The position numbers were made by a program, and so were the translations under genes. Shown piece by piece: positions 1,413 to 8,076 of a DNA stretch of 64,000 nucleotides. Below the pieces are notes generated by a model that had not been told where the DNA came from, made no database searches, and worked only from the letters and a program-made list of their open reading frames with translations. Source of the DNA: Methyloceanibacter sp. wino2 (GTDB lineage: Bacteria > Pseudomonadota > Alphaproteobacteria > Rhizobiales > Methyloligellaceae); assembly GCF_003071365.1 (NCBI RefSeq), contig NZ_CP028960.1:2400501-2464500 (forward strand), read 5' to 3'. The first letter of the stretch is position 1; each line of letters begins with the position of its first letter.

Positions 1413-1817
1413 ATGCGCGTTTTGATACCGATGGCTCTAGGGACGAGCTTGCTGGCCGCCGGCCCGGCGTTCGCGGAAGAGAAGTCCATCTGCGACAACG
1501 CGCAAACCACGATCGAGATCGGCGAGTGCGTCGGCAAGGAATACAAGAAGGCCGATGCGGAGCTGAATGCGGTGTGGAAGGAGGTCATGGCGACCTTCAA
1601 GAACAACGACTACATGCCCGCCGAGGATCTGAAGGCCTGGAAGGACACGCTTCTGGCCTCACAGCGCGACTGGATCAAGTTCAAGGAAGAAGACTGCGAG
1701 GCCGTTGGCTACGAGTGGTTCGGCGGTACGGGCCGCTCCAATGCCGTTGTCTTTTGCCTTCTCCACCACACGACCGCCCGGACCAAGGATCTGAAGGCCC
1801 GCTTCCTCGAGCGGTAG
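1413..1817 (+). CDS. LprI-like secreted protein (DUF1311)
   Basis: This 134-residue protein has a signal peptide of about 22 residues ending in PAFA. Its mature part has the DUF1311/LprI N-terminal pattern: a Cys near the start, then IGECVGKEYKKADAELNAVW and later LLASQRDWIKFKEEDCEAVG, with Cys pairs likely forming disulphides. LprI of mycobacteria inhibits lysozyme, but most members of the family are uncharacterised, so inhibition of lysozyme is only an inference here. A ribosome-binding site (GCGGAGG) lies just upstream of the ATG. It is 61 bases downstream of the sensor kinase and could be cotranscribed. Confidence 0.8.
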   Translation: MRVLIPMALGTSLLAAGPAFAEEKSICDNAQTTIEIGECVGKEYKKADAELNAVWKEVMATFKNNDYMPAEDLKAWKDTLLASQRDWIKFKEEDCEAVGYEWFGGTGRSNAVVFCLLHHTTARTKDLKARFLER

Positions 1818-4230: not shown

Positions 4231-5264
4231 CCGAGCGCGTCTTGGCTTCCGCGAAGCGCGACGACGACCAGCCGGAAGCCGCGCTCCGGCCGCAGACGCT
4301 GGACGAGTTCATCGGCCAAGCCAAGGTCCGCGCCAATCTCAAGGTCTTTATCGATGCGGCCCGGTCGCGGGGAGAGGCGCTCGATCACGTGCTCTTCGCG
4401 GGGCCACCTGGTCTCGGCAAGACGACGTTGGCACAGATCGTGGCGCGCGAGCTCGGGGTCAATTTCCGCGCGACGTCGGGCCCGGTGATCGCCAAGGCGG
4501 GTGACCTCGCGGCGCTCCTCACCAATCTCGAAGAGCGGGACGTGCTTTTCATCGACGAGATTCATCGCCTGAGCCCGGCGGTGGAGGAGATCCTCTACCC
4601 CGCCATGGAGGACTTCCAGCTCGATCTCATTATCGGCGAAGGACCGGCGGCGCGGTCCGTGCGGATCGATCTTGCCCGGTTCACGCTTGTCGCCGCCACC
4701 ACGCGCACGGGTCTTCTGACGACGCCGCTGCGCGAGCGCTTCGGCATTCCGATCCGGCTCATGTTCTACGAGGTGGCTGAGTTGCAGGAGATCGTGCGGC
4801 GGGGCGCCCGGCTCTTGGGGCTGCCGCTCACGGAGGACGGCGCCATGGAGGTGGCGAAGCGATCCCGGGGGACGCCGCGCGTGGCGGCGCGCCTGTTACG
4901 CCGGGTGCGCGACTTCGCGGCCGTGCAAGGCGACGGGGCCGTGGATGCGGCGCTGGCCGACAGCGCCCTGTCACAGCTGGAAGTGGACGGGCGCGGGCTC
5001 GATGCGCTGGATCACCGCTACTTGCGCCTGATCGCCGTGAACTACGGCGGCGGCCCCGTCGGGATCGAGACGATCGCCGCTGGCCTGTCGGAGCCGCGCG
5101 ACGCCATCGAGGAGATCATCGAGCCGTATCTGCTGCAGCAGGGCTTCATCGCGCGCACGCCGCGCGGCCGGGTGCTGACGGGGCAGGCCTTCGAGCATTT
5201 GGGCGCGACCGCGCCACCCGAGGCCGCGCAAGGTGTCCTCTTCCGAGGAGGAGAGGAGGAGTGA
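4227..5264 (+). CDS. ruvB: Holliday junction branch migration ATPase RuvB
   Basis: RuvB is the AAA+ motor of the RuvABC resolvasome. In this 345-residue protein the Walker A motif GPPGLGKT is at residues 59-66 and the Walker B motif LFIDEIHR is around 107-114. Next come the RuvB-specific [18 protein letters not shown] sensor region and a C-terminal winged helix ending [14 protein letters not shown]. Length and order match the family. It overlaps ruvA by 4 bases and its TGA overlaps the GTG start of ybgC. Confidence 0.98.
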
Positions 5265-5734
5265 GCGAAGCCCCGCCCAGCAATTGGCCCGATCTTGCCG
5301 GACGGATCGAGGGGGACCGCCACATCCTCCCCGTGCGCGTCTATTTCGAAGACACCGATTTCACCGGTCTCGTTTATCACGCGAACTTCCTGAAGTTCGC
5401 TGAGCGGGGCCGGTCCGACTTCATCCGTAATCTCGGCATCGATCACCGCAGTCTCGAGAACCCGGTTGAGGGGGACCCGGCCGTGTTCGTCGTGCGGCGT
5501 ATCGAGGTGGACTATCTGAAGCCCGCTCATATCGACGAGGTGCTCGAAGTCGTGACGCACTGCGCGGAGATCGGGGGCGCCACGCTGATCCTGTCCCAGG
5601 AGGTGCGCCGCGACGATGTAGTGCTGGCGCGCCTGAAAGTGTCCGTGGTGCTGGTGTCGAAGGCCGGCAAGCCGCAGCGGCTGGGGCGGCTCGTGCGGGA
5701 TGCGCTTGAACGTTTCGTTAAGGTGCGCGATTGA
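5261..5734 (+). CDS. ybgC: Acyl-CoA thioesterase, YbgC family
   Basis: This is a hot-dog-fold thioesterase of 157 residues with the YbgC signature [18 protein letters not shown]. The catalytic Asp33 and nearby His40 are present. In Enterobacteria YbgC is the first gene of the tol-pal operon and acts on short or medium acyl-CoA/ACP thioesters at the membrane. The GTG start overlaps the ruvB stop (GTGA), so ruvC to ybgC form one transcriptional unit. A 153-base gap then separates it from tolQ. Confidence 0.93.
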
Positions 5735-5887: not shown

Positions 5888-6613
5888 ATGAATCCGGATG
5901 CCGCGCTCGCCGTTGGCGACCCATCGTTTGCCGCCCCGTCGGTGCTGGGGTTGATCCTCGATGCACCCTTGGGCGTGCAACTGGCCATCGCCGCGCTTCT
6001 GATCGCCCTGGTCTGGAGCGTCACCGTGATCGTCCGGAAGCTGATCCAGTTCGCCCGGGCGCGGAAAGAGGCGGACAAGTTCGAAAAGGTGTTCTGGTCG
6101 GGCCAGGCGCTGGACGAGCTCTATCAGGCACTCGCGCAGCGCCGGAACGGCGGCATGGCCTCGCTGTTCGTGGTGGCCATGCGCGAATGGAAGCGCTCCA
6201 CCGAGACCGAGAACGGCCAACCGGCGGCGCGGCCCATGACCGGCGTCCAGGACCGCATCGACACGGTGACCAACGTCGCTCTGTTACGGGACGCCGAGGG
6301 GCTGGGGCGCGGGCTGACGCTTTTGCCCGCGATTGCGGCCGCCGCGCCGCTCATTGGGCTCTTTGGTCTCGGCTGGGGCCTCATGTCGGCCTTTCAGGGA
6401 GCGGCGGGCAGCGATCTCGCCAGCCTGGCCACGGTCGCTCCAGGGGTCGCACAGGGCCTTCTGGCGGCGGCGCTGGGGTGGTTCGTCGCGATCCCGGCCA
6501 AGATCTTCGCCTTGAAGTTCGAGGTGGAGCGGACGCGCTATGCAGCGCGGCTGCGCGGCTTCGCCGACGAGTTTTCCGCGATCCTATCGCGGCAGATCGA
6601 GAGGGCCGTCTAG
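5888..6613 (+). CDS. tolQ: TolQ-like protein with substituted channel residues
   Basis: The protein (241 residues) is clearly in the TolQ/ExbB/MotA family. It has a first transmembrane segment at about residues 29-50, the TolQ-type cytoplasmic motif FWSGQALDELYQAL, and helices around 145-170 and 182-205 with APLIGLFG and VAPGVAQGLLAAALGWFVAIPA. The position between ybgC and pal supports TolQ rather than ExbB. The residues that line the proton path in E. coli TolQ/ExbB are changed. Thr145 of GLFGTVWG is Leu161, the Glu of GIAEAL is Gln189, and Thr178 is Ala194. No tolR follows. The ATG at 5888 has a modest ribosome-binding site (GAGAGG). It may be inactive as an energised motor or may have been given another role. 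Confidence 0.85.
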   Translation: MNPDAALAVGDPSFAAPSVLGLILDAPLGVQLAIAALLIALVWSVTVIVRKLIQFARARKEADKFEKVFWSGQALDELYQALAQRRNGGMASLFVVAMREWKRSTETENGQPAARPMTGVQDRIDTVTNVALLRDAEGLGRGLTLLPAIAAAAPLIGLFGLGWGLMSAFQGAAGSDLASLATVAPGVAQGLLAAALGWFVAIPAKIFALKFEVERTRYAARLRGFADEFSAILSRQIERAV

Positions 6614-7083
6614 CGCCTGTTTGTTGCGCCGCGGCATGGGGCGGCTTCGGGCGCTGTCGTACCTCTGCCGGCCCTCGTCCGTTAGCAGGCCGGGCATCGA
6701 ATCCGGCCATGTGGGCTACAGGTCGTGCCGCCTGCCGGGTGTGAGTTCCGATGGTGCGATTTGGTCACGGACAACCCGCGATTCGACGGTGACTTTTTCC
6801 GCATTTTTGCTTCGTTTTTCGGCGCTTGAAGGCCGTCTGTGTCGCTGCTGCAACACATGGTTACCTTTCCTTAACGCGAACCACCCAACGTGGTTAACCG
6901 CGCCTTGCTCAGCGTTTCATCGGGGGATAGCTTCCCAAGGACGAACGACAAGATTCGGCGTGGCATTTTCGCATCATGGGCTGGCAAATCCGTCAGGAGA
7001 CCTCAGTCCGATCTTGATCTGAATGCGCTGCACCGGTACACGCAAAGACGGCACTTGCCGTATTAACCAAAGGAGAGAAGACC
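6614..7083 (+). other. Intergenic region where tolR/tolA/tolB would be expected
   Basis: This 470-base stretch between tolQ and a small lipoprotein gene contains no convincing coding frame. Open frames here show no TolR, TolA or TolB features. It is AT-richer than its surroundings in its second half and ends with an AAAGGAGAG ribosome-binding site for the next gene. It probably contains the promoter of the small lipoprotein gene, but I cannot assign clear promoter boxes. Confidence 0.5.
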
Positions 7084-7203
7084 ATGCAGGGTTTGAAGGG
7101 CGTTATCGCCGCTGTCATGCTCGTTGCAGCTGCCGTTTCGCTCGGCGGTTGCTTCGGCCACCACGAGAAGGCCGTTGTTGTTGAGCCGCTGAAGCTCGGC
7201 TAA
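7084..7203 (+). CDS. Small lipoprotein, 39 residues
   Basis: This short gene starts with ATG 8 bases after an AGGAGA ribosome-binding site. The product is MQGLKGVIAAVMLVAAAVSL, then GGC with the lipobox Cys at position 23, and a mature part of only 17 residues (CFGHHEKAVVVEPLKLG). Signal-peptidase II processing would leave a very small lipopeptide, similar in size to entericidin or Lpp-like peptides but without recognisable similarity to them. It sits between tolQ and pal. A GAGCGCC-TTC-GGCGCTC hairpin follows at 7223-7239. Confidence 0.65.
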   Translation: MQGLKGVIAAVMLVAAAVSLGGCFGHHEKAVVVEPLKLG

Positions 7204-7518
7204 CACCGGTATGGCAGATCCTGAGCGCCTTCGGCGCTCGGATTTGCGGAAACTCTCGGGTTTCACTACGGGATTTGGGATGTCCAGCGCGCTAGAGATT
7301 TCGGCGCCTTGGGCATCCTTTTCCTTTTCTGGGCCCAGCGTTTTGTAAGCTGGGTACCCCATGAGTTCTGTACTCATGCCGGGCCCTGATCCCGGCCCAC
7401 GGCACCGCGACGAGCGGGACGCCGTTTTGCTTTCCCGATCCTTAAACGGCTAACACCGCATTAACGGCTTGGCCCCTAGGCTTCTCCCATAACCAACCGT
7501 GTTTGGGAGTATCCGGTT
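7204..7518 (+). other. Intergenic region between small lipoprotein and pal
   Basis: This is 315 bases without a supported gene. It contains a 7-bp hairpin with a three-base loop at 7223-7239, not followed by a T run, so at best a weak or Rho-dependent terminator. It also contains a GC-rich partial palindrome at 7379-7400 (GCCGGG ... CCCGGC) that resembles the REP-like palindrome at 11630-11655. The pal promoter is presumably in the last 80 bases. A GGGAG ribosome-binding site lies at 7505-7509. Confidence 0.45.
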
Positions 7519-8076
7519 ATGCGTCTGTGCGGTGGCTTCGGCCGCGCCGGCGCCCTTGTGGGCGCGTTTTTCCTGTCTTCCGGTCTATCCGCTTGTTTGG
7601 GTCCCACGACCCAGCCGCAGGAGTACACGCTCGGCGCCGCCGGCTCGGGCGACGCTGGAGGGCTCGTCGCCGAGGCATCCGCGAGGGTCGACAGCGCGTC
7701 GCGTCCTGCCGGCTCCACGCAATTCGCCGCCGCCGGCGATGTGGTCTACTTCGACAGCGACAGTTCCGAACTGTCCCCGGCCGCCAAGGCGATCTTGCGC
7801 CGTCAGATCCGCTGGCTGCGCGCCCATCCCGACCACCGGATCCTCGTCGAAGGCCATGCGGACGAATGGGGCGACTCCCAGCACAATCTGATGCTCGGTG
7901 CCGAGCGGGCCGTGGCCGTGAAGACCTATCTGGAGAGCAACGGCGTGCACGCCGCGTCGATCCCCACCGTTTCCTACGGCCGGGAGCGCCTGGCCGCGAA
8001 CTGCGAAGCGCTCTCGTGCCGGGCGCGCAACCGCCGGGCGCGAACGGTCGTGAGCCTGCCGCCGAACTTTCGCTAG
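7519..8076 (+). CDS. pal: Peptidoglycan-associated lipoprotein Pal
   Basis: This is an outer-membrane lipoprotein that binds peptidoglycan. The 185-residue precursor has a signal peptide with lipobox LSAC (Cys26) and a linker of about 50 residues. An OmpA-like domain follows, starting VVYFDSDSSELSP and continuing VEGHADEWGDSQHNLMLGAERAVAV and SYGRERLAANC. The Asp of the HADE motif and the Arg of ERA, which contact diaminopimelate in OmpA/Pal, are present. Trp replaces the usual Arg in 'HADERG'. In the canonical cluster tolB precedes pal and cpoB follows it; here both are absent and tilS follows after 62 bases. Confidence 0.9.
   Translation: MRLCGGFGRAGALVGAFFLSSGLSACLGPTTQPQEYTLGAAGSGDAGGLVAEASARVDSASRPAGSTQFAAAGDVVYFDSDSSELSPAAKAILRRQIRWLRAHPDHRILVEGHADEWGDSQHNLMLGAERAVAVKTYLESNGVHAASIPTVSYGRERLAANCEALSCRARNRRARTVVSLPPNFR

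Follow-up and report, generated by a model that had tools for sequence, protein, structure and literature searches.

During cell division the outer membrane is drawn inwards by the Tol machine, which is powered by protons. Within this machine TolR is the bearer of the proton-carrying Asp, and in E. coli the TolR replacement D23A has been described as abolishing function, giving filaments and death in deoxycholate as do the TolQ replacements T145A and T178A, and TolQ E173A as disrupting division and being lethal (PMC12583513). Motors with T145A/T178A were described as assembled and non-functional (PMC10424213), so loss of the polar ring formed by these two Thr residues does not necessarily destroy assembly. 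The TolQ residues Ser28, Ile29 and Trp32 are described as contacted by His22 of TolA (PMC12215075). For Caulobacter, Tol-Pal has been reported to be essential, and in S. meliloti, which belongs to the same order as the genome studied here, attempts to knock out tolQ and pal are reported to have failed (PMC7327166); genomes without tol-pal have been tied to intracellular life (PMC12204202). A literature search that covered few subscription papers returned no paper on both Methyloceanibacter and TolQ, and Methyloceanibacter and Tol-Pal co-occurred in one paper, through its reference list only. For TolQ without TolR the search found the vWA-linked TolQ-like proteins, to which a Thr ring is ascribed (PMC12204202).

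We analysed a stretch of 64,000 nucleotides from Methyloceanibacter sp. wino2 (the window) and found a tolQ-derived gene (5888..6613; an ORF of 241 aa) with no TolR, TolA or TolB genes beside it, the product of which is referred to as orphan TolQ. The residues of TolQ are numbered as in E. coli when Thr145, Glu173, Thr178, Ser28 or Trp32 are named, and all features of the locus lie on the + strand. The genome is a single contig of 3.21 Mb, in which the genes run ruvC-ruvA-ruvB-ybgC-tolQ, a gap, and pal-tilS-ftsH; ruvC and ruvA are what we take them to be from their translations, and the neighbouring genes were identified by BLAST against the genes of tol loci. Orphan TolQ thus has the ybgC-tolQ...pal operon place, with ybgC recognised at 5261..5734 by its ORF and by locus comparison. 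The same comparison puts the place of the absent tolR-tolA-tolB at 6614..7083, and no tolR, tolA or tolB was found by BLAST between tolQ and pal at the window locus. An earlier note, made from the letters of this DNA, had the substituted residues of TolQ right and was silent on the absence of tolR, tolA and tolB downstream, which is the larger fact.

When orphan TolQ was aligned with solved TolQ chains (A. baumannii 9avi/8vlw; E. coli 9kpz/8odt), Leu161 (6368..6370), Gln189 (6452..6454) and Ala194 (6467..6469) stood in the Thr/Glu/Thr columns with no gaps around the sites, as the earlier note had placed them. Leu161 and Ala194 replace Thr145 and Thr178 of the polar ring, and Gln189 replaces Glu173 at the periplasmic mouth of the water channel. 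The docking site for TolA was changed as well, since Leu41 (6008..6010) and Val45 (6020..6022) replace the His22 contacts Ser28 and Trp32 in the same alignment. Position 41 was Leu or Phe and position 45 Val or Leu in all seven genomes of the clade described below, and these positions were Ser and Trp in 32/32 other covering rows; position 42 (Ile29) was Val or Ile, canonical rows included. Lys205 (6500..6502) brings a new charge that is invariant in the clade, with Val in all 31 canonical rows.

Lone changes at these sites were seen elsewhere. G183 (L163, 1042-1764) has Pro for Thr145 in a tolQ-tolR locus that is otherwise normal, and the TolQ ORF of L150 (5086-6027) has Glu173 changed to Gln alone and is followed by ORFs that, as named from their translations, are tolR-, tolA-, tolB-, pal- and cpoB-like. 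The change in L150, in a system that looks intact, indicates that Glu at this position is not required everywhere; as lone changes exist in intact systems, what counts is the full set combined with the loss of the partners.

Profile searches placed orphan TolQ in the Pfam family MotA_ExbB (PF01618; 62.1 bits). With the tolQ model TIGR02796 it scored 179.9 bits, below the cut-off of 221, compared to 286 and 288 bits for the TolQ of G008 and G009, and with the exbB model TIGR02797 it scored 105.6 bits, below the cut-off of 206.2. AlphaFold2 (15 sequences) gave a monomer model with a mean pLDDT of 82.5 and a pTM of 0.66. Foldseek on this model returned TolQ, TolQR or TolQRA entries at all of ranks 1-23, with query-normalised TM values of 0.77-0.82, and ExbB entries at ranks 24-45, so the predicted monomer has the TolQ fold. 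Orphan TolQ is therefore like the Tol-Pal TolQ of E. coli and A. baumannii (8odt, 9kpz, 9ddm, 8vlw, 9avi) in predicted fold, in operon place between ybgC and pal and in conserved cytoplasmic segments, but it differs in having no Thr ring, no equivalent of Glu173, no docking Ser/Trp and no adjacent tolR, tolA or tolB, and hence no TolR with its buried Asp at the locus. ExbB of the Ton system shares the superfamily and the fold; however, orphan TolQ has a lower score with the exbB model than with the tolQ model, and no exbD- or tonB-like gene was seen beside it. The vWA-linked TolQ-like proteins resemble it in having no tolR beside them, but PMC12204202 describes a conserved Thr ring in them and an Asp pair in the partner, whereas orphan TolQ has lost the ring and lies among ybgC, an ORF of 39 aa and pal. 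Judged by its sequence, the protein is a TolQ by descent that lacks the functional marks of a TolQ.

The missing partners were also sought outside the locus. TolB gave no TIGR02800 match in the whole of the wino2 genome or in any of the seven clade genomes. With a TolA query from G009, the best match had an E value of only 0.28 in the wino2 genome, 0.15 in the seven clade genomes and 0.086 among the ten genomes without tolA and tolB; of the positive controls, G013 gave 2e-76 and is independent, and G009 is the source of the query. Two ExbD/TolR proteins of the wino2 genome were above the cut-off, each inside an exb cluster, and a third match was weak (E 0.056, 14.7 bits) and below it. At the locus, tolR, tolA and tolB were absent from all seven clade genomes; beyond the wino2 genome the absence of TolR was judged at the tol locus only.

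The earlier note had asked whether the substitutions occur in a whole clade and had stated that they were not random decay. A TolQ search of 41 genomes (our own and 40 relatives) gave a TolQ-like match in 40, and the alignment had 40 rows, that is, 39 relatives' neighbourhoods and the window. At the three sites L/Q/A was found in 7 rows and T/E/T in 31, one row covered only E/T and one covered no site. The L/Q/A rows all belong to the genus Methyloceanibacter, and all 31 others that cover the three sites have T/E/T, so the answer is yes and the statement holds: the same three residues occur throughout one clade of seven genomes, which speaks against chance. The members include M. methanicus R-67174 (G014), the Methyloceanibacter MAGs G010 and G007, and UBA7697 (G003), with assemblies of 2.4 to 3.4 Mb in the clade, one of them from a named strain; M. 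marginalis R-67177 (G008) and M. superfactus R-67175 (G013) do not have L/Q/A. Relatives that keep tolQ, tolR, tolA and tolB together (27 of 40 loci) never carried L/Q/A: T/E/T stands in 26 and the remaining one covers E/T alone, which leaves the earlier claim of a lost proton-driven function standing where it could have fallen. Among the best 80 of 111 named-genome loci, which overlap the 40-row set, Ser, Trp and T/E/T were found together in 75, the clade accounted for 4, and one had Ser, Trp and T/Q/T.

Wider surveys used a codon pattern that detects codons not starting with A, which never encode Thr, at the first Thr site only. Of the 297 order genomes, six had such a codon, every one of them from Methyloceanibacter, and 264 had the Thr form; in the class such codons were present in 2 of 385 genomes, namely our own and G183, the latter with its lone Thr-to-Pro change and normal tolR. 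TolB was absent (E 1e-30) from 10 of 297 order genomes that are at least 90% complete. Six of these ten came from the orphan-TolQ clade, and the other four were G031, G437, G524 and G616.

A tree of 34 rows was made from RuvB, YbgC, TilS and FtsH, omitting G020, G031, G032, G035 and G040, which had too little data, and G012. The seven L/Q/A genomes formed one clade with a support of 100, and M. marginalis was its sister with a support of 95. The 17 genomes of the genus comprised five with a full tolQ-tolR-tolA-tolB-pal locus, seven with an orphan TolQ, three that look intermediate and two that were uninformative and not counted as losses (in G011 tolQ and ruvB were not found, and in G012 the contig ends inside tolQ). 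Among the intermediates, the M. marginalis locus has tolQ with T/E/T and pal, and has neither tolA nor tolB. Its tolR (L033, 1550-2030) has a frame broken in mid-gene, with the VDV motif remaining and tolQ intact; the break could be a sequencing error. The tolQ branch of M. marginalis is very short, at 0.10 of the flanking genes, so TolQ is tightly held there despite the absence of tolA and tolB. The other two, G002 and G006 (L038 and L037; MAGs that are 82 and 84% complete), have tolQ with T/E/T and a tolR ORF of full length with Gly (VGV) at the place of the proton-carrying Asp (VDV), and tolA, tolB and pal are all absent from their loci. For Pal, G006 gave no match at E 0.001 and G002 one weak OmpA-like match. 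These two genomes group with a support of 100 and are placed beside M. superfactus with a support of only 63, so that tolA and tolB may have been lost either once or twice. As the disarming changes differ between the two lineages, the stator was disarmed at least twice on present data.

We then looked at which parts of TolQ were kept. Conserved positions were those shared by at least 95% of 31 canonical TolQs (78 positions), with segment borders set from the alignment, and the clade retained 48 of them. Retention was 23/24 in the cytoplasmic segments, 22/47 in the membrane helices and 3/7 in the N-terminus and periplasmic loop; the cytoplasmic and membrane parts differed with a Fisher p of 2e-5, with rows that are not independent. 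In the cytoplasmic loop alone (residues 57-140; 6056..6307) the alignment showed 17 of 18 retained. In the membrane helices 16 of the 47 positions were changed in all seven genomes, and these include all five functional residues (hypergeometric p 0.003, rows again not independent). Several residues are invariant in the clade and missing from all 31 canonical rows, e.g. L161, L165, A178, Q189, A194 and K205.

The orphan TolQ frame is open in seven genomes at identities as low as 70%. Median dN/dS (Nei-Gojobori), for which the synonymous sites of distant pairs are partly saturated, was 0.18 for TolQ across 21 pairs from the clade and 0.14 across 28 pairs from eight genomes of the genus with a canonical TolQ, compared to 0.19 and 0.25 for TilS and 0.03 and 0.07 for FtsH, respectively; the closest pair of orphan TolQs had a dN of 0.010 and a dS of 0.167. 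Orphan TolQ is thus under purifying selection. Rates were determined on a fixed tree relative to the flanking genes. For the membrane part they were 5.0 on the clade stem, 2.4 within the clade and 0.32 in canonical lineages, and for the cytoplasmic part 1.4, 1.5 and 0.85; whole TolQ gave 1.9 within the clade and 0.59 in canonical lineages. On the stem of G002 and G006 the membrane and cytoplasmic rates were 1.75 and 0.83. These rates point to a burst of change in the membrane helices alongside the loss of partners, later lower yet still raised, with far less change in the cytoplasmic part. As orphan TolQ evolves faster than canonical TolQ in its cytoplasmic part too, constraint has been partly relaxed. 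A neutral pseudogene was also considered and is unsupported at the median dN/dS of 0.18.

The earlier note had proposed that the protein is no longer a proton-driven stator, and this is now strongly supported, as the Thr ring, the Glu, the two TolA-docking residues and tolR, tolA and tolB at the locus are all gone. That orphan TolQ is de-energised is thus well supported by the residues and the locus, and going by the published work it should be unable to drive TolA. We consider it probable that it is a TolQ by descent that was retained, de-energised, for a mainly cytoplasmic role independent of the proton motive force (pmf), probably in scaffolding. In the proposed course of events, the order of which we infer, the ancestor of one Methyloceanibacter clade would have lost tolR, tolA and tolB, and with TolR gone TolQ would presumably stay a pentamer with an empty central pore. 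Change of the Thr ring to Leu/Ala and of the channel-mouth Glu to Gln would then have made the old proton path apolar and probably sealed it, so that ring and Gln might block proton leak through the TolR-less pore. The TolA dock was altered too, and purifying selection would hold the other face, mainly the cytoplasmic loop and the C-terminal helix, for a pmf-independent job.

The job retained would most likely be that of a scaffold in the division or polar-growth machinery. S. meliloti TolQ was described to pull down not only TolR and TolA but also RgsA, RgsS and RgsE, which are proteins of polar growth (PMC7327166), and TolQ overexpression in E. coli to block division with an FtsN-null-like phenotype, in tolR and tolA mutants too (PMC3831626); together these make a scaffold role reasonable. 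However, the part of E. coli TolQ that contacts FtsN was mapped to its periplasmic N-terminus, and the cytoplasmic pairings reported there were negative (PMC3831626), which argues against FtsN as the cytoplasmic partner.

Two further MotA_ExbB proteins are present in the wino2 genome, each beside an exbD-like and a tonB-like gene and each with GLFGTVWG and GIAEAL; the second orthologous tolQ that the earlier note had asked about was not found in this genome. One of the exb clusters scores above the ExbB and ExbD cut-offs and the other below both. The latter, an exbB-exbD-tonB-like cluster by its profile scores (C1, about 2246000-2248000, with C1:2247020-2247864; L001, L004), has an ExbB-like protein with 172 bits for tolQ and 148 for exbB, both below cut-off, and an ExbD-like protein with 120.8 bits for tolR and 111.2 for ExbD, also both below cut-off, the TolR cut-off being no guide here as the ordinary TolR of G009 falls below it too (105.6 bits). 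The product of the third gene matches the TonB C-terminal domain above the cut-off, and TolA only weakly, with 37.8 bits and below cut-off. Orthologues of the cluster were present in 7/7 genomes fetched, of which G009, G013 and G018 have a full Tol system and G003, G004, G005 and G010 belong to the orphan-TolQ clade. A second TolQR-like motor therefore does exist in this genome, as far as profile scores can tell, and some link between orphan TolQ and an ExbD/TolR-like protein is conceivable, which is a point against the retained-role reading.

These scores would fit a transfer of the energised Tol task to the C1 cluster, which would have freed TolQ, TolR and TolA and is compatible with the retention of a de-energised TolQ. 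We regard the transfer as rather unlikely, because TolB, the usual target of TolA, is gone, and because the cluster is old, being present in relatives with a full Tol system, and so was not gained with the Tol loss. The same ExbD-like proteins, of which one is slightly nearer to TolR than to ExbD by score, and the family of tolR-less TolQ-like proteins with proposed vWA partners (PMC12204202) could also speak for orphan TolQ as a motor that couples to an ExbD-like or other transmembrane protein through other residues. This we consider improbable: each ExbD adjoins an ExbB of its own in which the Thr motif is intact, PMC12204202 ascribes a Thr ring and an Asp pair to the vWA-linked TolQs, and the letters of TM2/TM3 show no sign of a new polar ring.

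A relic whose function was lost with its partners, and which is in slow decay, would account for a score below the TolQ model cut-off and for an evolution that is faster than that of canonical TolQ, chiefly in the membrane helices, and still raised within the clade. However, the open frames at identities down to 70%, the low dN/dS both as a median and in the closest pair, the 23 of 24 conserved cytoplasmic positions and the clade-invariant residues seen in none of the 31 canonical rows make such a relic improbable. An artefact, by misassembly, by a paralogue or with the true tolQ elsewhere, is scarcely conceivable, as the window genome and G005, both of them single contigs, and the named strain M. 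methanicus all agree and the order ruvB-ybgC-tolQ-pal-tilS-ftsH is kept, even if some of the relatives are fragmented MAGs.

We thus return to a de-energised TolQ with a retained role. The orphan-TolQ clade, whose assemblies measure 2.4 to 3.4 Mb, no longer has TolR, TolA and TolB at the locus and retains a disarmed TolQ along with Pal, which raises the question of what TolQ does besides powering TolA and how this clade constricts its outer membrane. That these sediment bacteria kept TolQ without proton path or docking site suggests a second TolQ job free of proton power, and also that a stator without load is selected for disarming. More tentatively, at just short of an even chance in our view, the second function may be ancient and cytoplasmic, independent of proton power, TolR, TolA and TolB, and alone left in Methyloceanibacter, where the stator was disarmed differently in two lineages or more, by loss of the TolQ ring or of the TolR Asp. 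If a second function is true, Methyloceanibacter would be a natural separation-of-function experiment.

Pal has diverged as well. The window pal (7519..8076) scores 103-105 bits with TIGR02802, below the cut-off of 125.35, and Pal is retained across the clade, where it stays below the cut-off just as it does in M. marginalis. In the five genomes of the genus with a full locus Pal exceeds this cut-off; outside the genus G027, with a full Tol system, and G033 fall below too, so a low score is not special to the clade. In G004, closely related to the window genome, the pal frame (L027, near 7200-7860) is broken into three short pieces with interior gaps, either by a real loss or by a sequencing error. 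At what we take to be the peptidoglycan-binding motif of Pal, M. marginalis and the six clade Pals that read through have DEWG, and 24/24 other rows have DERG or DERA; the same seven have CR where the other rows have CW. In view of the low score, DEWG and CR, the clade Pal may perhaps act as a passive tether.

Elsewhere in the window, 1413-1817 (+) encodes a protein of the LprI family (lysozyme inhibitor). A single pattern recovered the lipoprotein-like ORF of 39 aa that precedes pal (7084..7203) from 12 of the 40 tol loci. It carries LGGC, which we presume to be its lipobox, and it is highly similar in 11 loci of the genus and in L040, with a conserved block upstream; the portion of 6614..7083 that adjoins it is a conserved non-coding block common to relatives. 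Longer versions were found in L036, L048 and L056 with a looser pattern, and the ORF is retained in all ten loci without tolA and tolB.
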